From contig CM026432.1 of the NCBI GenBank assembly GCA_014871385.1, positions 6,039,224 to 6,103,223 on the forward strand: a DNA stretch of 64,000 bases, in the 5' to 3' direction. Made by a program: the position numbers and the translations under genes. Positions 83-43,999 of the stretch are shown in pieces; the stretch's first letter is position 1; each line of letters begins with the position of its first letter. This DNA comes from Ceratodon purpureus. Its lineage: Eukaryota; Streptophyta; Bryopsida; Pseudoditrichales; Ditrichaceae. The notes beneath the pieces are model-generated. The model searched no databases. It worked only from the letters and a program-made list of their open reading frames with translations, and was not told the origin of the DNA.

Positions 83-96
83 TGGCGCCGGCGCCA
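83..96. repeat. GGCGCC palindrome, perfect copy
   Basis: TGGCGCCGGCGCCA, extended to a 16-bp palindrome by flanking C and G. It is followed by GGTGGGAGGC, an extension shared with the sites at 768 and 1119. Confidence 0.95.
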
Positions 97-767
97 GGTG
101 GGAGGCGGTTCTGAAGTTGACTCAGAATGTAACTAACAGCAACGAGCATAAAGTTGACTAACAACAACAAGCAACAAGCACTTGCTTTCAACGGAGCAAG
201 TGATGGAGTACCGGCGCTATCAATACTTCCAAGCTAACACAGACGAATGTATACTTATAAAAGACTGTTTAAATAAAATTATGTGAAGAGCAAGTTCAAA
301 TGCTAATGAAGATAAACTCTGTGAGACGCTCAATTATGTGAAGAGCAACTCGAGAAAGTGCGACCAAACACCTCACAAGTTGGCTCAAAAAAACAGTTAG
401 CACAAGCGAATTTACGAATAGTTTCCGAAATCCAGCCAATAACGAGAAACGAGAATCTAATCTTTTTGAAGAGCCTCGCTTGCAGGTCCCACTATGCAGA
501 GGCCATCTCACGATAAACGTATACAATCCAATAATCGTATCAGAAAGTTCAAATCAGGAACTAAAATAAAAATCAATCAAGCAGAGGACTAGCATTCTCC
601 GAAGCAATCACAAGCATCAAATCTGGTCCTCGAAATCGATCACTGTAGATTGCAAGTACGAACGCTGAGACATAAATTGACTTCTGCCTCGGACTGAAGG
701 ACCGGGCGTGACTACAAACTTGTAAACATAGAGAAAGGATGGACAAAGGACGGACAAAGGATGGAAA

Positions 768-781
768 TGGCGCCGGCGCCA
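768..781. repeat. GGCGCC palindrome, perfect copy
   Basis: Perfect TGGCGCCGGCGCCA followed by GTTGGAGGC, related to the extension after the site at 83. Confidence 0.95.
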
Positions 782-1118
782 GTTGGAGGCTAGTATGCAA
801 AAGTCATAGAACCTAACAAATATAAGCATTTGCGTTCACTGGAGTATAGAAGGGAAGGCCTAGGGCTCTATTAATATATCGGTGCTAATAGTCATGTATC
901 CAAACACATAAAATTCTATCCAATGCATGCCACACTTGTGGAAAATAATGGAGAATTCAAAACCTGGAATGGGTTTAGTGAAGCACCACTTGTATATGAG
1001 ATTAGAGAATAAGAACGTATGTCCTCCACTTAGATTCCCAAGGTAAGCATGTGAGTATGAGAGCAAAAACTGAAATAGTTGATAGTTAACTCTAAGAAAG
1101 TCTCCATAACCATACAAA

Positions 1119-1132
1119 CGGCGCCGGCGCCA
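1119..1132. repeat. GGCGCC palindrome, one change
   Basis: CGGCGCCGGCGCCA; the first T is replaced by C. It is followed by GGTGTGAGGC, the same extension seen at 83. Confidence 0.95.
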
Positions 1133-1424
1133 GGTGTGAGGCAAATCTGCAAGGAACCAAAATATCCTACGCAGCCAAGTAGACGCAGTTAACAAAGGTT
1201 TTGAGTCACAAATGATAGCGTCAAAATCTCTCACGGGACACAACGCTGGCTCCAGCTGGGTCTGATAAACGGACTCTAAACCGAGATGAGGGCGTAAATC
1301 TGAGATTCACTGATAATAACTTCTGCGGAGTATCACATCCATACGGGATCCGCAAGAAGAGAAATTAATCAAACACGTGAAAGAGTTAGGGTTGAGAGCG
1401 ATGTGACCAAATTACAGTATGTGA

Positions 1425-1438
1425 TGGCGCCGGCGTCA
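1425..1438. repeat. GGCGCC palindrome, one change
   Basis: TGGCGCCGGCGTCA; a C to T change near the right end, as expected from deamination of a methylated cytosine. Confidence 0.9.
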
Positions 1439-1790
1439 CCTCACATGATGGGGGAATTTATGTTGACATCCAATGAAGATTAGACTATCCACATCAAAGA
1501 CTAAGTGATCCAAATCGTGCTCGCATCGGCATCGGCATGCAAAACTACCATGCATCTACTCAGTGAATCCGGGAATGAGTACTGCGATGAGCAGACTTGA
1601 TCAAGCAGCGTAATTTCTATACAAACCATATAGACCTGCAAGTATCCGAGTGCTTTTACAGTCAACAATGCGATGCTAGTTGGACATATCCTCTAGCGGA
1701 TCAAAAAACTCACAACCCCACGCCTCAAAATCCCCCCAACTCAATACAATGTGAATCTCAAGATACAGTCGACGCATTTTCCGCGGCTCG

Positions 1791-1804
1791 TGGCGCCGGC
1801 GCCA
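1791..1804. repeat. GGCGCC palindrome, perfect copy
   Basis: Perfect copy lying just downstream of the stop of the minus-strand ORF that ends at 1820. Confidence 0.95.
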
Positions 1805-1819
1805 GTTCTAAAGGGTACC

Positions 1820-2125
1820 TCACCAATCTGATCGCGAAGAAGAATTCCTAGAGACACAAACATGAAACATAACAATCTGACCTAATTCCGAAAGACCCAA
1901 CAAGCCCATCCACAAAAAACCGACTCTAAGTACCTGGACTTCAGTCTTTCGTTTCTTGCGCCCTCGACCCCCACCATCCTCGTCCTCCCTGGACCTCCTA
2001 CGCCCTCGCGTCCCCGTGCCTTGAGTCATGTTCAAGCCTTCAGGCGCCTCTCCAGCGAGCATGTGATCTAGAAGTCCTCCAACCCTGGCCTTCCTCGACC
2101 TCGACATACTGGTACTGCTCGGCAT
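1820..2125 (-). CDS. Small basic, possibly nuclear protein of unknown function
   Basis: From the ATG at 2125 the ORF gives about 101 residues. It starts MPSSTSMSRSRKARVGG and continues into a strongly charged stretch with GRRRSRED and GRKKRKTE, which looks like a nuclear localisation signal. A TATATA box on the minus strand at 2242-2248 lies about 117 bp upstream. A good splice donor (CAG/GTACTT) directly after the basic stretch, near 1934, could remove the hydrophobic tail seen in the unspliced ORF and join to an exon not identified here. The gene is divergent from the transposase gene and would share its promoter region. No family is recognised. The ORF could be spurious, but composition and promoter position favour a gene. 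Confidence 0.35.
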   Translation of the reverse strand: MPSSTSMSRSRKARVGGLLDHMLAGEAPEGLNMTQGTGTRGRRRSREDEDGGGRGRKKRKTEVQVLRVGFLWMGLLGLSELGQIVMFHVCVSRNSSSRSDW

Positions 2126-2241
2126 TGTGAACACCCACACTGTAAAGTAGATCTGAAGATGAAGTACCACCGTGACTATTTCGGGCGATGGAGTAGTTCG
2201 CAGCTGACAAGTCGTGGATAAGCATGATTGACCCTTGTCCT

Positions 2242-2248
2242 ATATATG
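2242..2248 (-). promoter_or_regulatory. TATA box of the small basic gene
   Basis: TATATA on the minus strand about 117 bp upstream of the ATG at 2125. It lies in the roughly 490-bp region shared with the divergent transposase gene. Confidence 0.35.
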
Positions 2249-2268
2249 GGACACCGGCGAATGCCGTT

Positions 2269-2276
2269 GGCGCCAC
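2269..2276. repeat. Half palindrome TGGCGCCA
   Basis: A single GGCGCC unit with flanking T and A, in the divergent promoter region 345 bp upstream of the transposase ATG. Confidence 0.7.
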
Positions 2277-2542
2277 GGTAATATTTCGACGTAAATTGCA
2301 AGGCTGCAACTACGCGTATTCACAACGTTACAGATTTAAAAGCGTTTCCTTCTGCATATTGGGCAGCGGCTAAACATCCAGTAAATCGTTTATCGGCACA
2401 TAACCCGGTAGTTAAACGGCTTATGAAATGGCGGCACTGGTCACGAATTTTTCCGACCGTTTCAATCGGGCCCCTATTACTTAACGATTAGAATTGGACA
2501 CATGAGTCCGTTGTGAATTCCTAACGACTGATTCACCCCAAA

Positions 2543-2550
2543 TATAAAAG
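2543..2550 (+). promoter_or_regulatory. TATA box of the transposase gene
   Basis: TATAAAAG lies 71 bp upstream of the ATG at 2614. The spacing fits a short 5' leader. Confidence 0.6.
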
Positions 2551-2613
2551 AAAACAACATGGTGTCTGGATATCACATTCCAGAGTACGAATCAAAATAC
2601 GATCAAAGTTACG

Positions 2614-5600
2614 ATGGAGTCCCAATCAGCCATACCGCGATTGTTGAACTTAGAGTTAGCTGGCGGAACTGCAAGATTAGATTGCTCTGGTGTTGGTGAT
2701 TCAGTAGAAGTCTTGGAGTCCAATATAGTACAGGCATTCTGCCTAAGCGTTGGAACAATACATATTAAAAGATTGGACGTTTCTGGAGCTCTTTGCGGGC
2801 GCTTCTGGCCGGAAAAGAGGAATGGCCAAAACATTTTCACGTTGCCTTTCACTGAAGACGGAATTTATATTGTACATGGCGATCCTCAGATGGGGATAGT
2901 TCCTGTAGATGCGCAATTGCAACCCGGAAGAAATGATAATGACCGGCATGTGGACTGGATTCTATTGGAGGACACGTCGTGTGACAGTCCATACAGCGAG
3001 GGTGGGTTTTCGTGTGGAAGTCCTGAATTCGAAGGAGGCTCTGGATCGCGGAGGGCTAATGCGCCAGGGAGACGAAACCTATGTCTCGAAGATTATCCTG
3101 TGGAGCCAATTGGTACCTCGGGTATTCAGGACACGGAGGTTGACAATGCTCCCGGATCACCTGATGTGACAACTCCACAGCACAGTCCGGGACCAGCCAG
3201 TCCAATACAGTGTCCCCCGTGCGATCAGAGTCCACTGGAATCGGTGAGTGCGGATTCGGAGGATGATCTTCTCGCTGAAGCTTACATGACACCGTGCTCT
3301 CCACCAAGGCCAAGGGCAACCGTAGCTGAGGACGACGACTCCCCTTTTCCCGGGGCGTTCTCCATAATGCCAAACTTAATGGATCTGGCTAGCAAAGGTT
3401 GCACGGGTGAGCTCGCTAGTCTCCCGCTTCTCGATTTCCCGCACACTAAATGCAGATATTTGCCAAGGGAATATGACGGAAATCAGCTATACGAAGTTCC
3501 TCCAGTTTCAGATGATGATTACATAACGACTGATATATCGTTCGATGGGCATCCCTGGATAAAGTCCAACAGCTACAATTCTGCGCGCCTTAAGGATGCA
3601 GGGCTGCGTGTTCGAAAGAGCTTGTGTGCTGGAGCTTTCGAGTGTAAAAACATTGATTGCCCCCATATCGATCTCCATGATGGTCCAAACACACTATATT
3701 GGGATGGCCGATGTCACAAAAGGGTAACTCCTGGGAAAACGCCGATAGATAGCGACTGGAGATGTTCCTTCTGTCATCATACACCTTATAACGTTCATCA
3801 GTGTAGTGCAGTTCTTTGGATAATTAGCCATGATTCAGAATTTCTAACGCGGGCGGTTGTGCACGCCGGAACACACTCTCATCCATCAGCTGCAGGGCGA
3901 AGTCGGGGTGCGTATGTCAACATGACGGATACAATCCACAAGTTCCTGGATGACAATCCCTGGCTACTGGCCGCACCGGGGTGGGTAGGATTCCGATGTG
4001 CGCATAAGAACTTCTTTGATTTAATTATGCAGGGCACAACAGTCGAAGAGAGGGAACTGTTGAACGAAGAGGACCTCGTCCGCATTCTAGAGGATGCACC
4101 GCCTTACCATGACAAAACTCGAGTGAAGTACGTAGTTACAAAGTTCAGGTCAGACCAAGAGCGCTGCATCCTAGCATTGAAGCGATACTCCCGGTACTGC
4201 TTCATACAGGAGAGTCATTTTCCTGGTCAGTCCGATGAAGGCATCAAATTTGTTTTCAAGATGTCGACTGTTGGTATTGGAAGCGGGGTGGACCTTGTCA
4301 AGCGAATGACATCAGGTGATTTGCAAGATTCTTTCGTTATGTTTGACCACGTGAAACGAATTCATCACTGGACAACGATGGCAGCGCATGTGTATGACCA
4401 TAATCTCCAGCGGTTGCTGACAATTGCGGTCTGTGAGATGAAGTTAGAGAACACCGAAAACCAAATTAAGTTTTGGAACCTTCTTAACAGTGCGGTACAG
4501 AAACGAGGGATGCCAAAACCAAAATTTAAGGGCTTTATGGCAGACGCGGCCCCCGCAAACTACAACGCTGTAAGGGCTGTTTACGGACTGGTGGAGGGGT
4601 TAGACGGAAATCCAGATGACGTGGAGAAAGATGTTCAAAACCCCGAGAATCCCATCCTAAGGACCTGCTATTTCCACTTCGTACAAAGCATCAGGGATCA
4701 CACCAATAAGTGGATTCTGGAAAAGTATCGAGTTCACCATGTCGAGATGTGCAAACGGTGGGCATCCGCTCCAACTAATCAGGAATTTCGACAAATAGCT
4801 GAAGAACTAGAAGAATGGTGGCAAACGTCTGGAGCAGTTCAGAAATGCAACGTGAAGTTCATGCTTGCTTGGAAGACGTGGTGGATGGCAAGGCGAACAT
4901 TATTTGCGTATCACCATGTGAATGAACTTGATCTGGATCTGGAGAGCGAAGCACTAATTCCAACTACAAATTTATGCGAACCCGTTCACAGCTCAATGTG
5001 GGCAACATCAGCATGTGGATACAAGGTAAAAATGGATTTGTATACAGTGTGTGCAGAGGACATGACCCGGTCACTCCTCCAGCAACAATTTTGTCTCGGG
5101 GCGTCAAGAGGTCAACTGAAGGGCTCCGGACCATCGAAGGCTGACTTGTTGCTGAGAAGTGCAGCTAGGTCGCACCGGCCTGAGAAAGTCGCAATGGCAG
5201 TGAAGGCCGCAGTAAAAGGAACAGAGTTCCACTCCAGAGGCGTCGGATTGGAAGGAGAGCTCGACAGGACTCAAAGCGTTCGAATTGGTGCAAGACTCGG
5301 AAGGCGAACTTCGGCTCGTTCACATCGACCCGATAAAGACAGCCGAACTATCAGAAGACCGCTGAAAGATCAACCTGAATCTGCGCAGCCATCGAGGAAA
5401 CGGAATGCGTCCCAAGTAGAAGAACAAGGATACGGGGCCACATTTGGACCATCTGCAAATCGGTATTCCTACTCGTCTGGGATGGCGCCGGCTCCATTTG
5501 GCACTCAAGCTGCTGCTACATCAGGAGGGCAGCCTAGGTGTTCCTACCAAGTGTGTTCCTCGGAGGGCAACAATCCAAGCGCGAGAGATTTTACTCAAAC

Positions 5601-6957
5601 TCAACGTCAGGGTCAAACCATGGCGCCATTGAACCCAGGCAATCATTGGCAGTATCCGCAAACCGAGTCGCATATATTTAACCCGCTCCCCAAACATGCT
5701 CCATACCCTGACCGATGCCATAATCAGCAAAGCACGATTTGGAGGCCCCCCTCTCTCCCGCTTTCTACCCAAGAGTACCTCACAAATCAGATATTGTCAT
5801 CGTCCATGAATCCTTCCCGTGACCCGTACATGGGGTCCCACCCGCTTTCTACTCAAGAATTCTTGACAAATCAGATTTTGTCACCATCCATTCCCCGTGA
5901 CTCATACATGGAGCAAACAGGGATACGAACCCCGGTCCCTAGGGCAAACATCCCGCATCAAAGTAATGGACATCCCATTCGTGCACCCCATAGTCTCATG
6001 TATCAACCATCCGGTTTATCCGGTCGACCACACTTACCAGGAATTCAACATCAGCAATATGCACCTGCTGACACGGTGTTGCAATTTGGTAACCCTGTTC
6101 TGGAGAGAGAAATCGATCACAACGAATGGGCGATTCGTAGATCATTACCAGGCGAAGACCCAAAATGTTCAGCTTACGTTGATCGAAATGGCAGATGGGA
6201 GTCTTGTGGTCGACCTCTTAAAAGTACTTCGAATCTAAGTGTCGCAGCTCCATCATTCTATGGCACATGTGAAATCCGATTCACAAAGAGCTTCCAAATT
6301 TATTGGTTCTGTCCAAGATCAGCATCAGGGTGTGTGGTTAGCGACCATGTCCTCCACATGAGAGGAGGGAAGCCGCCAAAAATACCAAGGGTTTGGCCGG
6401 TTGACAGAGGTACCAAGTTGAACACCTCCGAGGCTAATGAGCTTGGTAGAGCGGGATTCCTTTTGGTAGACGATGCTTCAGTTGAAGAGCAACTGAAACT
6501 CCAACAAATCGAGTTTGCAAGTAACGTGTCACCAATGAATCCGCTGAGAAGACCCCCGAGAAGGGCCGGGAAGCGAGTAAACAGACGATCTTTGACCGAC
6601 AGTGGAGAATCCCGAAGAGAAAACGGATTACGAATGGCCGCACAGGTTCGGGTTCTGAGTCAATGCAAGGAGGATTCTGTATACACGTTTAATTTGCAAA
6701 CTGTGTCAACAACAACTAACAAGTCTGTAAATTACGTAATCACCATAAGTGAGACGCCGTCTTGTACTTGTCCATTCTTCGTTAACAGCGTATCCGACCA
6801 CAAGCCTGGTCATTTCTACATGACATGTAAGCATATGTACCACATTTACAACCGAGTGCTCGGATTACCGCTTACTGATGAGCGGCCACATCAAGCAACT
6901 TTGAGCCGAGCGGAAGTCGAAGATATAATGAAGACCTGGAGACCTACTCCAACTTGA
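2614..6957 (+). CDS. Mutator-like (MULE) transposase with WRKY/GCM-type zinc finger and SWIM finger
   Basis: This is an intact 1447-aa intronless ORF. Residues 1-110 are a folded-looking N-terminus, and about 110-260 are acidic, Ser/Pro-rich and probably disordered. About 335-425 form a Cys/His domain ending HAGTHSHP, like WRKY/GCM-related fingers of MULE proteins. The MULE DDE core follows: D578 in MFDHVKR, D644 in FMADAAPANYNAV, the C..H stretch CYFHFVQSIRDH, and E789 in TTNLCEPVHS. A basic, low-complexity region (about 870-1130) contains a tandem repeat around LSTQE(Y/F)LTNQIL. A second Cys-rich patch follows. A SWIM finger is C1384-x-C1386-x18-C1405-x-H1407. All catalytic and zinc residues seem present, so the protein may be active or domesticated. 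Terminal inverted repeats were not found within 2 kb on either side. Its length is greater than most plant MULE transposases. Confidence 0.85.
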   Translation: MESQSAIPRLLNLELAGGTARLDCSGVGDSVEVLESNIVQAFCLSVGTIHIKRLDVSGALCGRFWPEKRNGQNIFTLPFTEDGIYIVHGDPQMGIVPVDAQLQPGRNDNDRHVDWILLEDTSCDSPYSEGGFSCGSPEFEGGSGSRRANAPGRRNLCLEDYPVEPIGTSGIQDTEVDNAPGSPDVTTPQHSPGPASPIQCPPCDQSPLESVSADSEDDLLAEAYMTPCSPPRPRATVAEDDDSPFPGAFSIMPNLMDLASKGCTGELASLPLLDFPHTKCRYLPREYDGNQLYEVPPVSDDDYITTDISFDGHPWIKSNSYNSARLKDAGLRVRKSLCAGAFECKNIDCPHIDLHDGPNTLYWDGRCHKRVTPGKTPIDSDWRCSFCHHTPYNVHQCSAVLWIISHDSEFLTRAVVHAGTHSHPSAAGRSRGAYVNMTDTIHKFLDDNPWLLAAPGWVGFRCAHKNFFDLIMQGTTVEERELLNEEDLVRILEDAPPYHDKTRVKYVVTKFRSDQERCILALKRYSRYCFIQESHFPGQSDEGIKFVFKMSTVGIGSGVDLVKRMTSGDLQDSFVMFDHVKRIHHWTTMAAHVYDHNLQRLLTIAVCEMKLENTENQIKFWNLLNSAVQKRGMPKPKFKGFMADAAPANYNAVRAVYGLVEGLDGNPDDVEKDVQNPENPILRTCYFHFVQSIRDHTNKWILEKYRVHHVEMCKRWASAPTNQEFRQIAEELEEWWQTSGAVQKCNVKFMLAWKTWWMARRTLFAYHHVNELDLDLESEALIPTTNLCEPVHSSMWATSACGYKVKMDLYTVCAEDMTRSLLQQQFCLGASRGQLKGSGPSKADLLLRSAARSHRPEKVAMAVKAAVKGTEFHSRGVGLEGELDRTQSVRIGARLGRRTSARSHRPDKDSRTIRRPLKDQPESAQPSRKRNASQVEEQGYGATFGPSANRYSYSSGMAPAPFGTQAAATSGGQPRCSYQVCSSEGNNPSARDFTQTQRQGQTMAPLNPGNHWQYPQTESHIFNPLPKHAPYPDRCHNQQSTIWRPPSLPLSTQEYLTNQILSSSMNPSRDPYMGSHPLSTQEFLTNQILSPSIPRDSYMEQTGIRTPVPRANIPHQSNGHPIRAPHSLMYQPSGLSGRPHLPGIQHQQYAPADTVLQFGNPVLEREIDHNEWAIRRSLPGEDPKCSAYVDRNGRWESCGRPLKSTSNLSVAAPSFYGTCEIRFTKSFQIYWFCPRSASGCVVSDHVLHMRGGKPPKIPRVWPVDRGTKLNTSEANELGRAGFLLVDDASVEEQLKLQQIEFASNVSPMNPLRRPPRRAGKRVNRRSLTDSGESRRENGLRMAAQVRVLSQCKEDSVYTFNLQTVSTTTNKSVNYVITISETPSCTCPFFVNSVSDHKPGHFYMTCKHMYHIYNRVLGLPLTDERPHQATLSRAEVEDIMKTWRPTPT
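5483..5496. repeat. GGCGCC palindrome, one change, inside the transposase CDS
   Basis: TGGCGCCGGCTCCA, encoding part of GMAPAPF in the disordered region of the transposase. Confidence 0.8.
5621..5628. repeat. Half palindrome TGGCGCCA inside the transposase CDS
   Basis: Half site 125 bp after the full site at 5483, in sequence encoding TMAPL. Confidence 0.6.
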
Positions 6958-7271
6958 TAGTGCAATGCAAGCGCCGGCTCAATCATGTTCTATCAAGGTG
7001 ATGGCAACCAAGTTTAGTATATACCACGATCGTGATTACTGATAGCAGATAAGAAGCACAGATGTGCACCCATATTGAGAACGCTTGGCATGCTGCATCC
7101 CCCTAGCACTTACTCGTAGAATCTGTTCAGCTTTCAATTAAGTAATATACAAACGGATTTGCAAATATGTCTTAATTACAAATACTCCTTGTGGCGGCTG
7201 TAACTCAGTCTCGTTACTCCACAAAAATGTGAGTTCAAAATTGAATAACCAACGGACTGATTTCTCTCTGA

Positions 7272-7285
7272 TGGCGCTGGCGCCA
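7272..7285. repeat. GGCGCC palindrome, one change, upstream of RING gene 1
   Basis: TGGCGCTGGCGCCA, 191 bp upstream of the ATG and about 100 bp upstream of the TATA box. Confidence 0.9.
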
Positions 7286-7373
7286 TTCGAACTAGGCACG
7301 GGCGGCGACGCCATTGTTGAATGAACGATTCCACTAGTTGGGATGAATGATTTAACTCGGCCTCAATGCAACC

Positions 7374-7380
7374 TATAAAT
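7374..7380 (+). promoter_or_regulatory. TATA box of RING gene 1
   Basis: TATAAAT lies 89 bp upstream of the ATG at 7463. Confidence 0.6.
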
Positions 7381-7462
7381 CACTTAGCAAATACTCACTC
7401 ACAAGTATTCAGGTTTTAGATCTTCCCTGCTTAGCCGTATTGGAACTATTGCACGCCGCTCC

Positions 7463-8553
7463 ATGATGTCGTCGATGGCTGTTTTCCCCTTTGGTACCCA
7501 CTACTCTAGGATTACGTCCATCTGTTACCACAAGCATTTGATTGCGTCCGAGGCTAAGGGGAAGCTTGATGTCTCAGAGGAGAAGTTAAGGAAACTGAAA
7601 GAGGAATTTGCAATGGAGGAGCCCTCGCTCCCGGAGGAAGGCAGTGGTGTCAACGCGCTTGTGGAGGCGGAGGGAATCCTACGTGACACACATTCACGAT
7701 TTCTACTCTGCTATGAGTCTCTGAAAGATGCAGTTGTGCAGACTGCCATGATTGGTTCCACTACAGCTGACCCAGGAGTGCGATTCGAGACACGGGCGAA
7801 AGTGATTGGCCTCCGGGAGAAGATGAGACAGCTGAAGGATGACCGAGCTCAGGCAGAGTCTACTCTCTGCAACATAGATGGGTATGGTTCTTACCGCTCT
7901 CTCATTGTCTTAGTTCTTGAGGCTGAGCGAGAAACCGATATCCTTCGGGAGGAGTGGCAGGAGAAGGAGGCCGACCAGCAGCTTACCATTGATATTTTAC
8001 GCCGATATAGCGAACACACGCAGTTAACACTTTCGTCCGCAGTTCTTCATCCCAGTAGCATTGCGGAAGGGGACACTCGAAGATGCGAGATGTGCGGAAC
8101 AGGATTTCCGGAAGAGGAAGTGATACGCACACCTTGCGGGCACTTATACCATATGTTCTGTCTCGCAATCCGAGTAGCCGTAGATACGGAGTGCAGCAAT
8201 GCTGAATGCAACCTAGCTTTCCCGACTCCTTGGATGCAAACCTTCGGGTTCCCATCCCTGATGTTGTCCGAGCACAGCACGGAGGCAATTCAAAGTTCCT
8301 CATCTTCCGAGGACGAAATCGCTCCAGGTAAGAACTTATCATACCATCGATATAATTTAAGTTCTATTCATAAGGATTTCAATTTTGAATGTTTGAGTCA
8401 CCAACGCTGATATTGTGCTTAATTTGATTGTGTCATGAAGCATGCGACAGTGGAGATATTGGTGCAAATGAGCTGGGGACCCAAGAGGCAGAAAGTCCTG
8501 CCCAAGGAAATTCCTCACCAACGCCGGTCCAAAAGCGACCACGGGTCCTTTAG
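7463..8553 (+). CDS. Coiled-coil RING-H2 protein 1 (putative E3 ubiquitin ligase)
   Basis: Two exons: 7463-8327 and 8441-8553. The 113-bp phase-1 intron has donor CAG/GTAAGA and acceptor TGAAG. Exon 2 stays open to TAG and ends SPTPVQKRPRVL, a basic nuclear-signal-like tail. The N-terminal two thirds is charged and helical (probable coiled coil) and includes LPEEGSGVNALVEAEGILRD. The RING-H2-like finger is CEMC, then PCGHLYHMFC, then CSNAEC; the last pair is spaced wider (x4) than the usual x2. A Ser/acidic stretch follows. The gene at 11146 is a paralogue with the same intron position and tail. Such proteins usually transfer ubiquitin to bound targets; the substrate is unknown. The unspliced reading would end at 8410 with an unrelated tail. 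Confidence 0.75.
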
Positions 8554-9129
8554 TTTCTATCTGTAGATAATATGAAACTCGGATACGGGTGATAGGAAGC
8601 CGTAGTTTTGGAAAAACTTGATAAGTAGTGCAGAAATCATTTGAAGCTATATAATTGAACTTGATTTACTGTGCTTCATTTTGCTCTAAAATTGTTGATT
8701 TCGACAGTGGTAAAGCTCATATCCGTCAAATCCGTCATATGACGAGTTCGCTCTGTGTGACTAACGGAATCTGCACATATTGCCTCTATGATGTGGGATG
8801 GCGCCGGCGCCGTCTGATCATACTTTGAAAGGAAGCGAAGACAGGAAGTACAGGTTCTTCAAGCAGATTTGCGCCGATGTTAAGTTTTTTATTAGGGACG
8901 AAATTCAGAAGGACACTTAATATTCGTACAATTCATGTAACCGCTGTAATAGATGATGTTATCGAGGGTTAAACGAAAGGCCACAATCGAAACGGCAGAC
9001 ACGAAAAGAGTTTAGTTCGCCGTACTGCATCACATGTGACCGCAAACACTTCGCATTGACAAATTTACGATCGGCACATTCAGAATTCATATAGCTAATA
9101 TCAACGACATACTTAGGGCTCTTTAGACA
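8554..9129. other. Intergenic region between RING gene 1 and the SPH gene
   Basis: Contains one palindrome (8799). No clear TATA box or gene is seen. Confidence 0.5.
8799..8812. repeat. GGCGCC palindrome, one change, upstream of the SPH gene
   Basis: TGGCGCCGGCGCCG, 331 bp upstream of the SPH protein ATG and 246 bp downstream of the RING gene 1 stop. Confidence 0.9.
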
Positions 9130-10134: not shown

Positions 10135-10242
10135 TACATCGAGGTCTTTCTCGGCAGTGTATTTTTCTATTAAAATCAAATTTCATCACCGGAACAGATC
10201 AGTGAACAAGAATACAGAATGGGAAGCAGTGTGAGTAGATGA

Positions 10243-10256
10243 TGGCGCCGGCGCCA
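10243..10256. repeat. GGCGCC palindrome, perfect copy
   Basis: Perfect TGGCGCCGGCGCCA, 109 bp after the SPH gene stop. Confidence 0.95.
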
Positions 10257-10611: not shown

Positions 10612-10625
10612 TGGAGCCGGCGCCA
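10612..10625. repeat. GGCGCC palindrome, one change
   Basis: TGGAGCCGGCGCCA; shares its C to A change with the next site at 10906. Confidence 0.9.
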
Positions 10626-10905: not shown

Positions 10906-10919
10906 TGGAGCCGGCGCCA
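10906..10919. repeat. GGCGCC palindrome, one change, upstream of RING gene 2
   Basis: TGGAGCCGGCGCCA, 240 bp upstream of the RING gene 2 ATG. Confidence 0.9.
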
Positions 10920-15846: not shown

Positions 15847-15868
15847 GTCACTAAGTAATATCTTTCCG

Positions 15869-33409: not shown

Positions 33410-34059
33410 CCTATTTATGACATGCCGAGTGAGTGCTATAGATGATAAAGTGAATGCTCTAAATCGTTGATACCGCTATTGATGACCCTCTATTTCATTA
33501 TTCTCATCAGCTGAAATTTTGTATGTATAAGTTCATATTGAAAGCCTCCTGTTTCATTCATCAAATCACTGAAAATTGTAACATTTTCCAGAGGCACAGA
33601 ATTGGTTGCATCCAACATATAAGCAAACGATTTCCTGAAAAAGCAAAAGATTTCCGATTCACAAAATTGGTTGCATCCAACATATCTCACCCTCCATGGA
33701 TAGGCCAACGTAGTTAAAAATAGAAATGTGGGACCCTATTTATGACATGCCGAGTGAGTGCTATAGATGATAAAGTGAATGCTCTAAATCGTTGATACCG
33801 CTATTGATGACCCTCTATTTCATTATTCTCATCAGCTGAAATTTTGTATGTATAAGTTCATATTGAAAGCCTCCTATTTCATTCATCAAATTACTGAAAA
33901 TTGTAACATCTTCCAGATGCACAGAATTTGTTGCATCCACCATATAAGCAAACGATTTTCTGAAAAAGCAAAAGATTTCCGATTCACAAAATTGGTTGCA
34001 TCCAACATATCTCACCCTCCATGGATAGGCCAACGTAGTTAAAAATAGAAATGTGGGAC
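33410..34059. repeat. Nested 325-bp tandem duplication in array unit 3
   Basis: Two 325-bp blocks (33410-33734 and 33735-34059) are joined at the hexamer CCTATT, which also marks both outer edges. The first block has the sequence type of unit 2, the second the type of unit 1, so this unit is a recombinant between two unit types. Confidence 0.9.
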
Positions 34060-34975
34060 CCTATTCCGAAAATTGAAGTGTACTCAATAAACTAAATTTC
34101 TGAATGATTTAGCAGAATAATTTTTCACAATAACAATTAAAACTTAAGCCAACTAATTCTTGAATAAGCAAAAGATTTCCTACCACTGGAATCAATGTTC
34201 CAGTTTAGATTTGCCTTATGTCAAGTGGGGCAGGGGAACCCGTCAAGTCTGATAAGGAGTTACGTCGATCCAATTGATTTCACTCGTTACCAGGCTTCAG
34301 CCGGGGTCTTGCTCCCATTGACGAAATTATCTCTACCGAGTGTTCAATATATAAGTGACCGCGGTGTAACTTACAATGACCATGGGGTAAATGAATTCGC
34401 AAAACTTATCACCGTTGTGTCTTCACCGAAAATTCAATTTCAGACTTTGGAAAAGGGATACTGTCGAAAGCGGAATCCTGATTATTTGATCTTGAATTCT
34501 TAAACATGAAACTCACTTCAACAACCAGGCGATATGGATTAAAATTCGACCACTGTCGAAAAATTCCCAATAAAGCCGCAACAACGTCAGCATCCAGAAA
34601 TACCGAGAGTGACAGTTTCCGAGTTATATATTTTAGAGATCTGTTATGTTGCAAGGACCTTCTTGAGCTCAAACCTTCTTATCATGCAGCAATTTTCCAT
34701 TAAGAGTCATTTGGCGCCGGCGCCAAGAGGATTGGAGCAGCAAGTTCTAGGAAGACAGCATTCACCAAAAGAAAGAGAAAAATAAAAGGCAGAAATTGAA
34801 TCGAAAGAAGAAGGGTAAATAGAGAATCTGTATTTAAGCCTCACCAAAATATTGTTGGCTAAGTATATCTGGTCTCATCAGAATCTACACTGCACCTGAT
34901 AAAAATATACTTTCCTCGACGGTTTACAAAAGTGGCCAACTATGCTTTTAGCCTGTTTCACATAATGGATGGTAT

Positions 34976-35625
34976 CCTATTTATGACATGCCGAGTGAGT
35001 GCTATAGATGATAAAGTGAATGCTCTAAATCGTTGATACCGCTATTGATGACCCTCTATTTCATTATTCTCATCAGCTGAAATTTTGTATGTATAAGTTC
35101 ATATTGAAAGCCTCCTGTTTCATTCATCAAATCACTGAAAATTGTAACATTTTCCAGAGGCACAGAATTGGTTGCATCCAACATATAAGCAAACGATTTC
35201 CTGAAAAAGCAAAAGATTTCCGATTCACAAAATTGGTTGCATCCAACATATCTCACCCTCCATGGATAGACCAACGTAGTTAAAAATAGAAATGTGGGAC
35301 CCTATTTATGACATGCCGAGTGAGTGCTATAGATGATAAAGTGAATGCTCTAAATCGTTGATACCGCTATTGATGACCCTCTATTTCATTATTCTCATCA
35401 GCTGAAATTTTGTATGTATAAGTTCATATTGAAAGCCTCCTATTTCATTCATCAAATTACTGAAAATTGTAACATCTTCCAGATGCACAGAATTTGTTGC
35501 ATCCACCATATAAGCAAACGATTTTCTGAAAAAGCAAAAGATTTCCGATTCACAAAATTGGTTGCATCCAACATATCTCACCCTCCATGGATAGGCCAAC
35601 GTAGTTAAAAATAGAAATGTGGGAC
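34976..35625. repeat. Nested 325-bp tandem duplication in array unit 4
   Basis: Same structure and junctions as in unit 3 (blocks 34976-35300 and 35301-35625). The 1566-bp unit was therefore itself copied after the nested duplication arose. Confidence 0.9.
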
Positions 35626-38600
35626 CCTATTCCGAAAATTGAAGTGTACTCAATAAACTAAATTTCTGAATGATTTAGCAGAATAATTTTTCACAATAAC
35701 AATTAAAACTTAAGCCAACTAATTCTTGAATAAGCAAAAGATTTCCTACCACTGGAATCAATGTTCCAGTTTAGATTTGCCTTATGTCAAGTGGGGCAGG
35801 GGAACCCGTCAAGTCTGATAAGGAGTTACGTCGATCCAATTGATTTCACTCGTTACCAGGCTTCAGCCGGGGTCTTGCTCCCATTGACGAAATTATCTCT
35901 ACCGAGTGTTCAATATATAAGTGACCGCGGTGTAACTTACAATGACCATGGGGTAAATGAATTCGCAAAACTTATCACCGTTGTGTCTTCACCGAAAATT
36001 CAATTTCAGACTTTGGAAAAGGGATACTGTCGAAAGCGGAATCCTGATTATTTGATCTTGAATTCTTAAACATGAAACTCACTTCAACAACCAGGCGATA
36101 TGGATTAAAATTCGACCACTGTCGAAAAATTCCCAATAAAGCCGCAACAACGTCAGCATCCAGAAATACCGAGAGTGACAGTTTCCGAGTTATATATTTT
36201 AGAGATCTGTTATGTTGCAAGGACCTTCTTGAGCTCAAACCTTCTTATCATGCAGCAATTTTCCATTAAGAGTCATTTGGCGCCGGCGCCAAGAGGATTG
36301 GAGCAGCAAGTTCTAGGAAGACAGCATTCACCAAAAGAAAGAGAAAAATAAAAGGCAGAAATTGAATCGAAAGAAGAAGGGTAAATAGAGAATCTGTATT
36401 TAAGCCTCACCAAAATATTGTTGGCTAAGTATATCTGGTCTCATCAGAATCTACACTGCACCTGATAAAAATATACTTTCCTCGACGGTTTACAAAAGTG
36501 GCCAACTATGCTTTTAGCCTGTTTCACATAATGGATGGTATCCTATTTATGACATGCCGAGTGAGTGCTATAGATGATAAAGTGAATGCTCTAAATCGTT
36601 GATACCGCTATTGATGACCCTCTATTTCATTATTCTCATCAGCTGAAATTTTGTATGTATAAGTTCATATTGAAAGCCTCCTGTTTCATTCATCAAATCA
36701 CTGAAAATTGTAACATTTTCCAGAGGCACAGAATTGGTTGCATCCAACATATAAGCAAACGATTTCCTGAAAAAGCAAAAGATTTCCGATTCACAAAATT
36801 GGTTGCATCCAACATATCTCACCCTCCATGGATAGACCAACGTAGTTAAAAATAGAAATGTGGGACCCTATTGCGAAAATTGAAGTGTACTCAATAAACT
36901 AAATTTCTGAATGAATTAGCAGAATGATTTTTCACAATAAAAATTAAAACTTAAGCCATCTAATTCTTGAATAAGCAAAAGATTTCCTACCACTGGAATC
37001 AATGTTCCAGTTTAGATTTGCCTTATGTCAAGTGGGGCAGGGGAACCCGTCAAGTCTGATAAGGAGTTACGTCGATCCAATTGATTTCACTCGTTACCAG
37101 GCTTCAGCCGGGGTCTTGCTCCCATTGACGAAATTATCTCTAACGAGTGTTCAATATATAAGTGACCGCGGTGTAACTTACAATGACCATGGGGTAAATG
37201 AATTCGCAAAACTTATCACCGTTGTGTCTTCACCGAAAATTCAATTTCAGACTTTGGAAAAGGGATACTGTCGAAAGCGGAATCCTGATTATTTGATCTT
37301 GAATTCTTAAACATGAAACTCACTTCAACAACCAGGCGATATGGATTAGAATTCGACCACTGTCGAAAAATTCCCAATAAAGCCGCAACAACGTCAGCAT
37401 CCAGAAATACCGAGAGTGACAGTTTCCGAGTTATATATTTTAGAGATCTGTTATGTTGCAAGGACCTTCTTGAGCTCAAACCTTCTTATCATGCAGCAAT
37501 TTTCCATTAAGAGTCATTTGGCGCCGGCGCCAAGAGGATTGGAGCAGCAAGTTCTAGGAAGACAGCATTCACCAAAAGAAAGAGAAAAAAAAAAGGCAGA
37601 AATTGAATCGAAAGAAGAAGGGTAAATAGAGAATCTGTATTTAAGCCTCACCAAAATATTGTTGGCTAAGTATATCTGGTCTCATCAGAATCTACACTGC
37701 ACCTGATAAAAATATACTTTCCTCGACGGTTTACAAAAGTGGCCAACTATGCTTTTAGCCTGTTTCACATAATGGATGGTATCCTATTTATGACATGCCG
37801 AGTGAGTGCTATAGATGATAAAGTGAATGCTCTAAATCGTTGATACCGCTATTGATGACCCTCTATTTCATTATTCTCATCAGCTGAAATTTTGTATGTA
37901 TAAGTTCATATTGAAAGCCTCCTGTTTCATTCATCAAATCACTGAAAATTGTAACATTTTCCAGAGGCACAGAATTGGTTGCATCCAACATATAAGCAAA
38001 CGATTTCCTGAAAAAGCAAAAGATTTCCGATTCACAAAATTGGTTGCATCCAACATATCTCACCCTCCATGGATAGACCAACGTAGTTAAAAATAGAAAT
38101 GTGGGACCCTATTGCGAAAATTGAAGTGTACTCAATAAACTAAATTTCTGAATGAATTAGCAGAATGATTTTTCACAATAAAAATTAAAACTTAAGCCAT
38201 CTAATTCTTGAATAAGCAAAAGATTTCCTACCACTGGAATCAATGTTCCAGTTTAGATTTGCCTTATGTCAAGTGGGGCAGGGGAACCCGTCAAGTCTGA
38301 TAAGGAGTTACGTCGATCCAATTGATTTCACTCGTTACCAGGCTTCAGCCGGGGTCTTGCTCCCATTGACGAAATTATCTCTAACGAGTGTTCAATATAT
38401 AAGTGACCGCGGTGTAACTTACAATGACCATGGGGTAAATGAATTCGCAAAACTTATCACCGTTGTGTCTTCACCGAAAATTCAATTTCAGACTTTGGAA
38501 AAGGGATACTGTCGAAAGCGGAATCCTGATTATTTGATCTTGAATTCTTAAACATGAAACTCACTTCAACAACCAGGCGATATGGATTAGAATTCGACCA

Positions 38601-41339
38601 CTGTCGAAAAATTCCCAATAAAGCCGCAACAACGTCAGCATCCAGAAATACCGAGAGTGACAGTTTCCGAGTTATATATTTTAGAGATCTGTTATGTTGC
38701 AAGGACCTTCTTGAGCTCAAACCTTCTTATCATGCAGCAATTTTCCATTAAGAGTCATTTGGCGCCGGCGCCAAGAGGATTGGAGCAGCAAGTTCTAGGA
38801 AGACAGCATTCACCAAAAGAAAGAGAAAAAAAAAAGGCAGAAATTGAATCGAAAGAAGAAGGGTAAATAGAGAATCTGTATTTAAGCCTCACCAAAATAT
38901 TGTTGGCTAAGTATATCTGGTCTCATCAGAATCTACACTGCACCTGATAAAAATATACTTTCCTCGACGGTTTACAAAAGTGGCCAACTATGCTTTTAGC
39001 CTGTTTCACATAATGGATGGTATCCTATTTATGACATGCCGAGTGAGTGCTATAGATGATAAAGTGAATGCTCTAAATCGTTGATACCGCTATTGATGAC
39101 CCTCTATTTCATTATTCTCATCAGCTGAAATTTTGTATGTATAAGTTCATATTGAAAGCCTCCTGTTTCATTCATCAAATCACTGAAAATTGTAACATTT
39201 TCCAGAGGCACAGAATTGGTTGCATCCAACATATAAGCAAACGATTTCCTGAAAAAGCAAAAGATTTCCGATTCACAAAATTGGTTGCATCCAACATATC
39301 TCACCCTCCATGGATAGACCAACGTAGTTAAAAATAGAAATGTGGGACCCTATTGCGAAAATTGAAGTGTACTCAATAAACTAAATTTCTGAATGAATTA
39401 GCAGAATGATTTTTCACAATAAAAATTAAAACTTAAGCCATCTAATTCTTGAATAAGCAAAAGATTTCCTACCACTGGAATCAATGTTCCAGTTTAGATT
39501 TGCCTTATGTCAAGTGGGGCAGGGGAACCCGTCAAGTCTGATAAGGAGTTACGTCGATCCAATTGATTTCACTCGTTACCAGGCTTCAGCCGGGGTCTTG
39601 CTCCCATTGACGAAATTATCTCTACCGAGTGTTCAATATATAAGTGACCGCGGTGTAACTTACAATGACCATGGGGTAAATGAATTCGCAAAACTTATCA
39701 CCGTTGTGTCTTCACCGAAAATTCAATTTCAGACTTTGGAAAAGGGATACTGTCGAAAGCGGAATCCTGATTATTTGATCTTGAATTCTTAAACATGAAA
39801 CTCACTTCAACAACCAGGCGATATGGATTAAAATTCCCAATAAAGCTGCAACAACGTCAGCATCCAGAAATACCGAGAGTGACAGTTTCCGAGTTATATA
39901 TTTTAGAGATCTGTTATGTTGCAAGGACCTTCTTGAGCTCAAACCTTCTTATCATGCAGCAATTTCCCATTAAGAGTCATTTGGCGCCGGCGCCAAGAGG
40001 ATTGGAGCAGCAAGTTCTAGGAAGACAGCATTCACCAAGAGAAAGAGAAAAAAAAAAAGGCAGAAATTGAATCGAAAGAAGAAGGGTAAATAGAGAATCT
40101 GTATTTCAGCCTCACCAAAATATTGTTGGCTAAGTATATCTGGTCTCATCAGAATCTACACTGCACCTGATAAAAATATACTTTCCTCGACGGTTTACAA
40201 AAGTGGCCAACTATGCTTTTAGCCTGTTTCACATAATGGATGGTATCCTATTTATGACATGCCGAGTGAGTGCTATAGATGATAAAGTGAATGCTCTAAA
40301 TCGTTGATACCGCTATTGATGACCCTCTATTTCATTATTCTCATCAGCTGAAATTTTGTATGTATAAGTTCATATTGAAAGCCTCCTGTTTCATTCATCA
40401 AATCACTGAAAATTGTAACATTTTCCAGAGGCACAGAATTGGTTGCATCCAACATATAAGCAAACGATTTCCTGAAAAAGCAAAAGATTTCCGATTCACA
40501 AAATTGGTTGCATCCAACATATCTCACCCTCCATGGATAGGCCAACGTAGTTAAAAATAGAAATGTGGGACCCTATTGCGAAAATTGAAGTGTACTCAAT
40601 AAACTAAATTTCTGAATGAATTAGCAGAATGATTTTTCACAATAAAAATTAAAACTTAAGCCATCTACTTCTTGAATAAGCAAAAGATTTCCTACCACTG
40701 GAATCAATGTTCCAGTTTAGATTTGCCTTATGTCAAGTGGGGCAGGGGAACCCGTCAAGTCTGATAAGGAGTTACGTCGATCCAATTGATTTCACTCGTT
40801 ACCAGGCTGTAGCCGGGGTCTTGCTCCCATTGACGAAATTATCTCTACCGAGTGTTCAATATATAAATGACCGCGGTGTAACTTACAATGACCATGGGGT
40901 AAATGAATTCGCAAAACTTATCACCGTTGTGTCTTCACCGAAAATTCAATTTCAGACTTTGGAAAAGGGATACTGTCGAAAGCGGAATCCTGATTATTTG
41001 ATCTTGAATTCTTAAACATGAAACTCACTTCAACAACCAGGCGATATGGATTAAAATTCGACCACTGTCGAAAAATTCCCAATAAAGCCGCAACAACGTC
41101 AGCATCCAGAAATACCGAGAGTGACAGTTTCCGAGTTATATATTTTAGAGATCTGTTATGTAGCAAGGACCTTCTTGAGCTCAAACCTTCTTATCATGCA
41201 GCAATTTTCCATTAAGAGTCATTTGGCGCCGGCGCCAAGAGGATTGGAGCAGCAAGTCTTAGGAAGACAGCATTCACCAAAAGCAAGAGAAAAAAAAAGG
41301 CAGAAATTGAATCGAAAGAAGAAGGGTAAATAGAAGGGT

Positions 41340-42262
41340 AAATTGAAGAGCACCCTCCTTCTTTCCTCTTGTTCTTGTTCCTCTTTTATTTTATTTTATT
41401 ATTTTTTTTTTTTTATTTTCTTTTCACTTCTCTTCTTTCTTCTTGTTCCTCTTTCATTCTTTTAATTTTTTTTCACACTTCTTCTTTTTTCTTCTCTCAT
41501 AATTTTTTTCGCCCCCCTTCCCTTTCAGCCTTCCTTGGATTCCTTCATTTATGGGATTTTATCCCCATCGAGGTAATTAATCCATGTAGGACAGTGATTA
41601 TGAAGGAATTAAATATCTCCCTCCCCCACTCCCAGCCGCTCTCCCTCTCCTAGTCTCCCTCTCCACTGTCCCTCTCCCTCTCCACTGTCCCTCTCCCTCT
41701 CCCTCCCTCCCTCCCTCCCACCCACCCTCTCCCTCTCCCTCCCTCTCCCTCTCCACTGTCCCTCTCCCTCTCCCTCCCTCCCTCCCACCGTCGCACCCTC
41801 TCCCTCTCCCTCCCTCTCCCTCTCCACTGTCCCTCTCCCTCTCCCTCCCTCCCTCCCACCGTCGCACCCTCTCCCTCTCCCTCCCTCCCTCCCTCCCTCC
41901 CACCCACCCTCTCCCTCTCCCTCCCTCTCCCTCTCCACTGTCCCTCTCCCTCTCCCTCCCTCCCTCCCACCGTCGCACCCTCTCCCTCTCCCTCCCTCTC
42001 CCTCTCCACTGTCCCTCTCCCTCTCCCTCCCTCCCTCCCACCGTCGCACCCTCTCCCTCTCCCTCCCTCTCCCTCTCCACTGTCCCTCTCCCTCTCCCTC
42101 CCTCCCTCCCACCGTCGCACCCTCTCCCTCTCCCTCCCTCCCTCCCACCGTCCCTCCCTCTCCCTCTCCCTCCCTCTCCCTCTCGACTGTCCCATTCCCT
42201 CTCCTACCTTCCATTTTTTTTTCTTTTCCCTCCCTTCTTCTTTTTTTCTTTCTTCCTCTTCT
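41340..42262. repeat. Polypyrimidine tract with a roughly 70-bp CT minisatellite
   Basis: The + strand is nearly all C and T for about 900 bp: T-rich to about 41520, then CCCTCT-rich. Within about 41640-42200 the marker CACCGTCGCACC recurs at about 69-71-bp steps (41786, 41855, 41968, 42039, 42110). The long minus-strand ORFs here (Glu/Arg/Gly-rich) are products of the simple sequence, not genes. The tract ends about 140 bp before the ATG at 42404 and may be part of that gene's promoter or leader. Confidence 0.9.
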
Positions 42263-42403
42263 TCCCTTCTCCCCAGGGCTGCCGCGATTGTAGCTCTTGT
42301 GGTGGAAGAGGCTGTTGCTGGGGAGCAATTCCTCAGCAAGTGTGTAGTTTTGTTGAGCTGGGGAGCACAGTCGCTGCTGCGGCTGCTGGTGATACTTCAC
42401 CAA

Positions 42404-42880
42404 ATGGATCAGGATCGGGGTTTACTGTTAGCCTGGATGGCTTTGGTTTACATCCGGAGGGGCGCGAAGCATTACAACGATCCTATGGTGAAGCTTCCTG
42501 ATCTTCCCCATTTAAGCCTTCTTTTGTCAAAGTCGTCGGTTTATGACTGGACCGAGGATTGCCGTGATGAGGTGTTCAAGCTTGGGGAGGCCTCTGGATT
42601 TCCATTTACTCGGTTCCTGACCGAGCTTGAGCTGCCCAGCAATGTCCATGGATATTGTTCCGCTGCTCCTATTACAGTTGATACTACATCAGACGAAGTC
42701 TTCACTTCCTCTGCGTCTACTGCGTCCTTGGTATCAGGTGATGGAGTTCGGTCACCTGTTAATTCGGATTCTTATAGCGCTGTCGGAGCTCATATTGGGG
42801 AAGCCCGGGAAGTCAGAGGTGTTGAGAACTACCAGGTGCGGCTCATGGTTGGTACTCGTGGTTTCCGTTGTTTGATCTGA
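42404..42880 (+). CDS. Protein of unknown family (type X, copy 2), right of the tandem array
   Basis: 158 aa from the ATG at 42404 ([17 protein letters not shown]). An in-frame upstream ATG at 42299 exists, but the start at 42404 matches that of the gene at 28939. Similarity to that protein covers the first 80 residues: Trp at position 11, an LLL/RLL stretch, [19 protein letters not shown] against LVHPRWNPSVWEDIRRLEA, and SGFPFTRFL against TGVSFHEYL. The C-terminal half is Ser/Thr-rich. A donor-like CAG/GTGCGG at 42834 could splice out the last 15 codons to an exon not identified. No known domain is recognised. Confidence 0.45.
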
Positions 42881-42958
42881 TTGTGGCTTGGTTGAGTGGT
42901 GTTGATGCTTTTCGCTGGTGGGTTGGCAGGGTGAGGTTGACGGCGTTGCTGCATCCAC

Positions 42959-42972
42959 TGGCGCCGGCGTTG
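42959..42972. repeat. GGCGCC palindrome, three changes
   Basis: TGGCGCCGGCGTTG; the right end is altered only by transitions. Confidence 0.65.
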
Positions 42973-43554
42973 GAAGTGGTGTGGGTGCTGTGGTTTATTG
43001 TTGTTGCCGTTAGTGAGCTCAAAATAGTTCCAGGGATCCATAGCTCGGCTGTTAATTAGGGTTTCCAACAGCTGTAGGGGTTTTGTAGTGGGTTGCAAGT
43101 CGTTGAATCTGCAGATTAGTACATACAGTCCTTAAACACCTTGTGTATCTGGAGAACTGAGGAATTACTAAGACGATGAGCATGCATCTAAACTGACAAT
43201 CCATTTTCCTGGTTGTGTTGGGTGTTTACCCGGATCTCGGATAGGTGAAGGCACTTGGACGGATTCTGTTGACCTAATTTTGTGTGCTGAGTTGATGGTG
43301 CTGATGTCCTTGTTGATGGTTGTGTGTTGTTAAGGCTGAAGAGCATTTGAATCCGTTACTCCTCCAGATGGATGGTCGGGGAACTAGTTGTACCTGTGTT
43401 GTTCGTGTTGTGTCCCCTGTTGTTGCATTGGGATGCCGTGGGGTGTTGGAAAACTATGTGTGCTGACCATTGCGATATTAAACATTGTGTTCTATGAATG
43501 CAGGGGGACGGCGTTATCATCGCTGATGCAACTTGGTAGTTGTGAACCCCCAGC

Positions 43555-43568
43555 TGGCGCCGGCGCCA
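43555..43568. repeat. GGCGCC palindrome, perfect copy
   Basis: Perfect copy; neighbouring sites lie 596 bp left and 431 bp right. Confidence 0.95.
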
Positions 43569-43985
43569 TGACTTCATCAATTTCCACTCTTCCTTTATGC
43601 TTGAACTTTTTATTAACCTAGTCTTGAAGCCCCGGCTCGTGAGAGCTTCGGTCGGATTGATTGCTTTGGTGAGTATGCATTTGGAGTTTTTACTTCATTG
43701 ATGGACGTGCAACTGGTTTGTTATTTTTTTTCCTGCTGTTTTTATCAGTCTTGAATATACAATCCGACTCTTATGAAAGTTCATGCTTTCCATCTTTTGA
43801 TATAATGCTCGTCTCTACTTTTCGGATACGTATTCCTTCATAGAATGATTGATATCTTTTCTTCCCGTAAAGTACCAAATGCTTGCTATGAAGAACCAAG
43901 GCTTGGGGCCGACAGGTTCTCGCGAAATACCAGCACTTTTCAGTTGGGAACCTTTGAGTAGCTTGGGGCGGGTTGAGGGAGGGGT

Positions 43986-43999
43986 TGGCGCCGGCGCCA
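43986..43999. repeat. GGCGCC palindrome, perfect copy, last in the window
   Basis: Perfect copy. No further full site occurs in the remaining 20 kb. Confidence 0.95.

Follow-up and report, generated by a model that had tools for sequence, protein, structure and literature searches.

To our knowledge, few cases of sequence-specific self-recognition by a transposon have been described. One comes from the VANDAL transposons, which belong to the Mutator-like element (MULE) type. According to two reports on Arabidopsis, the protein VANC21 binds a short motif in the introns, intergenic DNA, and terminal noncoding DNA of VANDAL21, where the motif is multiplied by tandem repeats, and silencing is removed (PMC5735166, PMC10398659). 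In the first report, the VANC21 motif (YAGTATTAY) is short and nonpalindromic and occurs in dense arrays of a single orientation; VANC motifs change fast between VANDAL families (PMC5735166). Here, we analyzed a stretch of 64,000 nucleotides from the moss Ceratodon purpureus (contig CM026432.1, called C12 below, positions 6,039,224 to 6,103,223; hereafter, the window), in which a 14-bp palindrome, TGGCGCCGGCGCCA, recurs. The palindrome marks the noncoding parts of one giant transposon family and is largely confined to that family. Judging from the sequence comparisons below, we consider it probable that the palindrome is recognized by a dimeric factor dedicated to this family of cut-and-paste elements (50 to 110 kb, with a 9-bp target-site duplication [TSD] and a MULE-like transposase).

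Exact matches to TGGCGCCGGCGCCA number 19 in the window, 11 outside a tandem array and 8 within it, the same split of perfect sites that an earlier note made from the letters of this DNA (the original prediction) had given. The 29 sites of all kinds counted there lie between the 27 matches found here with up to one mismatch and the 32 found with up to three. In 100 dinucleotide-preserving shuffles, no exact match was obtained, and matches with up to three mismatches averaged 0.53 (maximum, 3), consistent with the earlier statement that such a 14-mer is far from chance expectation. Half-like sites, reported previously as TGGCGCCA, are also present (e.g., at 5621, 17369, and 17537).

To describe the structure of the site, we compared five islands of element DNA, the one in the window (W) and four on contig C1 (A, B, C, and D). 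Across 234 kb of element-island DNA, the half-site TGGCGC faces GCGCCA 101 times with 2 bp in between, and only one pair has any of the other spacings between 0 and 12 bp; such facing half-sites are absent from 49.7 kb of DNA neighboring the islands. The central dinucleotide is variable (CG 67, TG 12, CA 10, GG 4, CT 3, AG 3, and CC 2), ruling out the two abutting GGCGCC palindromes that had been proposed as the unit. We conclude that the true site is TGGCGC-N2-GCGCCA with fixed spacing. A weak wider palindrome of approximately TC[A/G]NA flanks each side and is present separately in the lineages W/D, B/C, and A. The most widely shared 8-, 10-, and 12-mers of the five islands are parts of the palindrome, and no other sequence is comparably shared. 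The sites are not copies of one short repeat: of the 34 W sites, a single one could be aligned to B and none to A or C. The 14-mer was not found in a literature search that left most subscription journals outside its reach, although the 12-mer GGCGCCGGCGCC occurs in 14 papers, with no transposon title among the 10 listed. FLYWCH proteins, which we presume to recognize GGCGCC, were followed as a lead, and GGCGCC was not found among the papers listed for it.

All 32 window sites lie between the ends of a single 57,261-bp mobile element (C12:6026423-6083683), the left 12.8 kb of which precedes the window and the right end of which is window position 44460. None was found in the 19.5 kb to its right, and the sites are thus not dispersed among unrelated genes, as had been supposed. 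Homology between W and D begins abruptly at C12:6026423. Among the other matches listed for a query with this left end, 18 of 29 start at the same base, 5 start within 6 bases of it, and 6 start further in. Among the sequences compared, the right end is common to at least six copies, W included. The 9-bp TSD was exact in all four end pairs tested, these being the four with both sides in hand: TTCTTCAAC (W), GTAATTAGG (D), CAAGGGAGG (a copy on C9), and CCAAGTAAC (a copy on C6). Given the exact TSDs and the sharp shared ends, the element is, or was, mobile as a single unit. Its putative terminal inverted repeats are imperfect, both ends starting with GAGG and sharing AGAGTGCA; the left end of the C6 copy has AAGG in place of GAGG. 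The four copies measure 57,261 bp (W), 52,811 bp (D), 110,316 bp (C9), and 72,082 bp (C6). The 110-kb copy (C9:16088333-16198648) includes another right-part segment, at 16151574, and could be nested or contain an internal duplication. Copies on C1 and C8 are ~100% identical across 5 kb, and movement or duplication is therefore recent. The TSDs and the transposase favor a transposon over an endogenous giant virus; the transposase, the only protein of the element searched against viral contigs, had no match there.

The five islands are collinear copies of one multigene element. DNA identity over the aligned parts is 84% for W/D, 74 to 75% for B/C, and 64 to 71% between lineages, where much less is aligned. 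The transposase-like gene is shared by all five islands and several other open reading frames (ORFs) by two to five of the five, with A, B, and C represented by parts, D lacking its right half, and segment L014 containing 3,136 N. The palindrome positions and the transposase gene recur with a period of ~46 kb over C1:20.28-20.36 Mb, and island B seems to be tandemly duplicated. At least 55 transposase loci, fragments included, were located on 12 contigs. Twenty of these, several with stop codons, are on C6 (a contig of 110.5 Mb), which we presume may be a sex chromosome.

Throughout the 362-Mb genome (151 contigs), the exact site occurs 793 times and the reversed pattern not once, which together with the shuffles rules out chance or composition as the origin of the sites. 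The first 50 of the 793 are on C1, where all but three singles belong to four islands. Two of the singles match element DNA (C1:130006 over 300 bp and C1:24172808 [L053] over nearly 400 bp), and the third (L054) had no match to element DNA in a BLAST search of ~400 bp. We then considered a genome sample of 94 distinct sites (96 rows), chosen by the bases CA 18 bases after the site and including array repeats on C5 and C8. Of these, 77 are within 60 kb of a transposase locus (zones covering 1.8% of the genome), and 84 are within 60 kb of one of 83 anchors that include element-end matches (2.3% of the genome), a measure of proximity and not proof of location inside the element. Four further sites have 20-base tails like those of known element sites (two with 1 or 2 mismatches and two, mutually identical, with 3 or 4). 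The scan found what had been put forward as support for the original prediction, namely, clustering in islands with shared gene content. Membership in one dispersed repeat family had been named there as a contrary outcome, and this is largely the case (88 of 94 sites, of which position accounts for 84 and flank similarity for 4); however, membership is no argument against protein binding. The earlier observation that the surroundings of the sites differ holds for their flanks, but independence from a larger repeat does not, all window sites lying within one element.

The sites have changed much less than the noncoding DNA around them. Between B and C, 11 of 24 noncoding sites were unchanged and 15 of 24 were still sites (up to one mismatch), versus 490 of 27,555 background 14-mers unchanged (1.8%). 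Between W and D, 14 of 22 were unchanged and 17 of 22 were still sites, versus 1,501 of 22,381 background 14-mers (6.7%). For these counts, local BLAST alignments were used, unaligned sites were scored as lost, and the array was left out. When only aligned DNA was considered and 14-mers with at least three CpGs served as the background, 14/18 and 15/18 sites were unchanged in B/C (versus ~9%), 23/30 from W to D (versus 38%; array sites included), and 15/20 from D to W (versus 35%), the W-D counts including array units and internal repeats. Transitions affected 11.0% of CpGs versus 5.0% of GpCs in W/D and 19.1% versus 11.3% in B/C. Since CpGs undergo transitions about twice as often as GpCs in the element, the retention of three CpGs per site is unexpected without constraint. 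The observed/expected CpG ratio is 0.84 to 0.90 in the element and 0.70 overall in neighboring DNA (0.53 to 0.79 by stretch), a lesser depletion that would fit low methylation. Sites are scarce in conserved ORFs, which occupy 55.0 of 234.3 kb but contain only 9 of 134 sites. Each of these nine coding sites is in one poorly conserved linker of the transposase, in the same frame, encoding MAPAP (9/9, five copies). Taken together, these comparisons indicate that the palindrome is kept by purifying selection in the noncoding DNA of the element.

The arrangement of sites and genes in the window is as follows (window positions; strand given where one applies).
1..44460: right part of the giant transposon, with sharp shared ends and an exact 9-bp TSD
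83..1804: five sites upstream of the transposase gene, at 83, 768, 1119 (1 mismatch), 1425 (1 mismatch), and 1791
2548..6957, plus strand: transposase-like ORF, 1447 amino acids from the ATG at 2614, with DDE-like, finger-like, and SWIM-like patterns
5483..5496: in-frame site (1 mismatch) in the transposase linker, coding for MAPAP
7272..7285: site with 1 mismatch to the 14-mer, 191 bp upstream of the first RING-like gene (7463)
7463..8410, plus strand: RING-like element gene, with relatives in all five islands; RING matches below cutoff
8799..8812: site (1 mismatch), 331 bp upstream of the next ORF (9130)
9130..10134, plus strand: Self-incompatibility-S1-like ORF (PF05938, E 1.8e-5), matched among the five islands between W and D only
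10243..10919: sites at 10243, 10612 (1 mismatch), and 10906 (1 mismatch), 5' of the second RING-like gene
11146..12000, plus strand: second RING-like element gene
12631..13673: sites at 12631 (1 mismatch), 13341, and 13660
14456..15112, minus strand: conserved element ORF of 218 amino acids, function unassigned, common to W, D, and C
15654..15667: exact site that separates a pair of divergently oriented conserved ORFs
15905..16573, plus strand: conserved element ORF, function unassigned, common to A, B, C, and W
17905..17918: exact site
28903..29646, plus strand: conserved element ORF, function unassigned, common to W and B
30327..30340: exact site preceding the array, present in island B too
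31000..41330, plus strand: tandem array (borders approximate) with 8 exact sites 1222 to 1566 bp apart, at 31905, 33146, 34712, 36278, 37519, 38760, 39982, and 41224
43555..43999: pair of exact subterminal sites, the second of which ends 461 bp before the right end
44430..44460, minus strand: putative right terminal inverted repeat, imperfect, starting with GAGG and sharing AGAGTGCA with the left end
44461..44469: right TSD copy, TTCTTCAAC; the same 9 bp lie directly left of C12:6026423

Other features of the window were also noted. A palindrome-free block of ~9 to 12 kb, largely AT-rich (27 to 37% GC at window 18 to 28 kb), extends over window 18000-30000 and the matching parts of A, B, and C; B and C gave no alignment across it, though its flanks align. 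Near the right end of the element, a CT-rich imperfect tandem repeat (window 41654-42204; units of 12, 71, 182, and 253 bp) is followed by a segment of ~1.2 kb (window 42268-43465) that has the opposite orientation in the right ends of the C1 and C9 copies. Outside the element, window 47647-47947 is a repeat of ~300 bp that is 92 to 96% identical at 31 or more other places, with short pieces matching inverted too, and the 2-kb stretch at window 48000-50000 has an 89% identical copy at C11:4870656-4872635. Further right are two host-like genes, for a GT8 glycosyltransferase and a protein kinase (window 59654-61378 and 62294-63955).

The transposase carries DDE-like residues, a finger-like pattern (WRC..C..HxH), and a SWIM-like pattern (CxC..CxH), the last read by eye as CTC..CKH at the C terminus. 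In all 14 aligned transposases, D273, D339, E484, C380/H383, and C79..H118 (also read by eye) are invariant, as is the WRC..C..HxH pattern. MULEs make TSDs of 7 to 11 bp, and the length of the TSD together with these patterns suggests that the transposase is MULE-like. An AlphaFold model of the transposase core was too weak for fold comparison (predicted local distance difference test [pLDDT] score of 40), and, apart from the matches given below, sequence searches of the PDB and NCBIfam gave no lead.

To the left of the transposase, on the minus strand, conserved exons encode a methyltransferase-like region. Parts of this gene are present in four of the five islands, the four in which the left part was examined. 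The region matches N6_N4_Mtase (PF01555; E 2e-5; 25.1 bits versus the Pfam cutoff of 26.7), a PHROG DNA methyltransferase (E 6e-6), and phage methyltransferases (E 2e-6), and can be aligned with a Flavobacterium phage methyltransferase. N4/N6 methyltransferases have the catalytic motif (D/N/S)PP(Y/F/W); all four copies (C, D, B, and W) have DTPD, not DPPY. Searches with this part found only DpnA (E 0.33) and two others at chance level in the PDB and only CcrM (E 0.038) in NCBIfam. In an upstream exon, a DGNHR motif is covered by a nonsignificant match to a ParB-like PHROG (E 0.093); no ParB match was obtained in the PDB profile search or in phages, and the AlphaFold model of this exon (pLDDT, 41) was too poor for fold comparison. 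The exon joins are approximate, and the parts are presumed to form a single gene. In island C, four sites lie between two exons of this gene, in what would be an intron.

The positions of sites relative to genes bear on the reading of the palindrome as a plain promoter or enhancer element, through which a host or element transcription factor would switch on each gene without any role for the element as a whole. In all five islands, a site with up to one mismatch is found 799 to 860 bp 5' of the transposase ATG, and a site is found 191 to 461 bp upstream of the neighboring RING-like gene. Likewise, 23 of 34 ORFs of ~200 amino acids or more, some of which may be internal exons, have a site within 1 kb upstream (expected, 16.8; P = 0.02). 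However, the enrichment of sites upstream is weak (31 versus 23.5 expected; P = 0.06) and therefore speaks against a promoter-only role, and many sites are 3' of ORFs, in the putative intron, subterminal, or in the array; we regard this reading as unlikely. It is less likely again that the sites are bound by the finger of the transposase, loading it onto the long element and uniting its ends. Although the transposase is present in every island, its finger-like pattern is invariant, and the outermost sites of W are 291 and 461 bp from the element ends, sites occur all over the element and are amplified in an internal array, and the terminal sequences compared are without the palindrome.

The palindromes might instead be target or anchor sites of the methyltransferase-like and perhaps ParB-like protein, which would modify these CpG-rich sequences or spread from them as ParB does from parS. 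The matches to methyltransferases, the ParB-like match over DGNHR, and the occurrence of gene parts in four islands argue for this proposal, but the Pfam score below cutoff, the altered catalytic motif, the nonsignificant and poorly modeled ParB-like exon, and the presumed joining of the exons argue against it, and we hold it to be improbable. A site for E2F or another known host regulator would account for TGGCGC, which is common to the E2F core. The E2F consensus is TTTGGCGC, with TTT before GGCGC; TT stands at -2,-1 in only 15 of the 239 distinct half-site flanks, and A stands at -1 in 114. With its flanks disfavored in this way and most sampled sites in or near the element, E2F is very improbable. 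We give slightly less credence still to hitch-hiking, in which a functionless short repeat was copied along with a recent repeat family. Some copies are indeed nearly identical, such as those on C1 and C8, but the sites outlive their noncoding neighbors (B versus C), and diverged lineages whose flanks are mostly unalignable keep the motif, its spacing, and its flank preference.

A site for a dimeric protein, as proposed in the original prediction, is still the best reading because the spacing of the half-sites is fixed, the flank preference recurs in three lineages, and the sites are conserved in decayed noncoding DNA; the prediction as a whole is supported in part. Such a dimer would read two identical 6-bp half-sites, TGGCGC and GCGCCA, facing each other across 2 bp. 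With sites distributed through intergenic DNA, putative introns, subterminal DNA, and the array, the factor would cover the entire element and hardly anything outside it. It may be encoded by the element itself and serve self-recognition, by which the element would stay transcribable and escape silencing. If the sites do bind a dedicated dimeric factor, we lean slightly toward element-specific anti-silencing or activation as its role, with plain promoter elements a doubtful second possibility and transposase loading or synapsis somewhat more doubtful. Candidate binders are the transposase, with its WRC..C..HxH pattern, and the multi-exon methyltransferase-like, weakly ParB-like gene to its left. 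The more specific idea that a catalytically altered methyltransferase-like and ParB-like protein binds hundreds of these selected, CpG-rich palindromes in the element and its relatives, marking or shielding 50 to 110 kb from host silencing, is speculative and, in our estimation, rather unlikely.

Several observations weigh against a dedicated self-recognition factor of a MULE-like family. Conservation cannot separate an activator from a silencer, and the enrichment of sites upstream of genes is weak. The raised decay of CpGs points to some methylation, and the element has not stayed unmethylated throughout. Confinement of the palindrome to the element is incomplete: 6 of the 94 sampled sites are untied to it (BLAST matches over ~400 bp were weak in three and absent in three), and two of the four sites linked by their tails have the 3 to 4 mismatches given above. 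Regarding the class of the transposon, none of the 14 transposase members matched the MULE domain PF10551 or any other Pfam family, and hhalign comparison with three canonical MULEs of the same genome gave no match, the profiles being thin. All 10 conserved element proteins scanned were without a Pfam match, and no VANC-like protein was recognized. Finally, unlike the VANC motifs, the palindrome is constant across lineages with transposases that are only ~55 to 63% identical in matched parts.

Literature searches on giant, moss, or Mutator-like elements found no description of the family among the titles listed, with most subscription journals outside the search; the size of the element, its constant dispersed palindrome, and its gene content look new. 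The palindrome is real, selected, and element restricted, and it would represent a new form of transposon self-recognition if a dedicated factor does bind it. With a family that keeps one palindrome across deep lineages, the means by which a transposon distinguishes its own DNA from that of the host become directly testable. It also opens the questions of how a cut-and-paste transposase moves 50 to 110 kb and whether modification-type proteins serve anti-silencing; shielding by a methyltransferase- or ParB-like protein, if true, could let a cut-and-paste element grow this large. In addition, the palindrome can be used directly to annotate these elements, which might without it be mistaken for ordinary gene islands.

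Compared with known systems, the element shares parts of several. Like bacterial ParB-parS and phage DNA methyltransferases, it combines dispersed palindromes with methyltransferase-like, weakly ParB-like parts; unlike these, it is a eukaryotic element with putative introns, a nonsignificant ParB match, and an altered catalytic motif. Fungal DNA transposons with TET/JBP dioxygenases likewise carry a gene of a DNA modification family (PMC12730594), whereas the gene here is methyltransferase-like, the host is a plant, and the palindromes are dispersed. With MULEs, including Pack-MULEs, the element has in common an exact 9-bp TSD, putative imperfect terminal inverted repeats, and DDE-like, CxxH, and SWIM-like patterns read by eye; it differs in its many extra genes and in lacking a Pfam MULE domain match and a profile match to the three MULEs of its own genome. 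The Pack-MULEs discussed in one report are at most 7 kb (PMC6431247), versus 52.8 to 110 kb here. Relative to VANDAL/VANC, the motif is a 14-bp palindrome and the element is far larger, and no VANC-like protein was recognized among the 10 proteins scanned. As in that Arabidopsis system, however, an element-specific motif occupies noncoding DNA and is amplified in tandem repeats (8 array sites in W and regularly repeated sites on C5 and C8).

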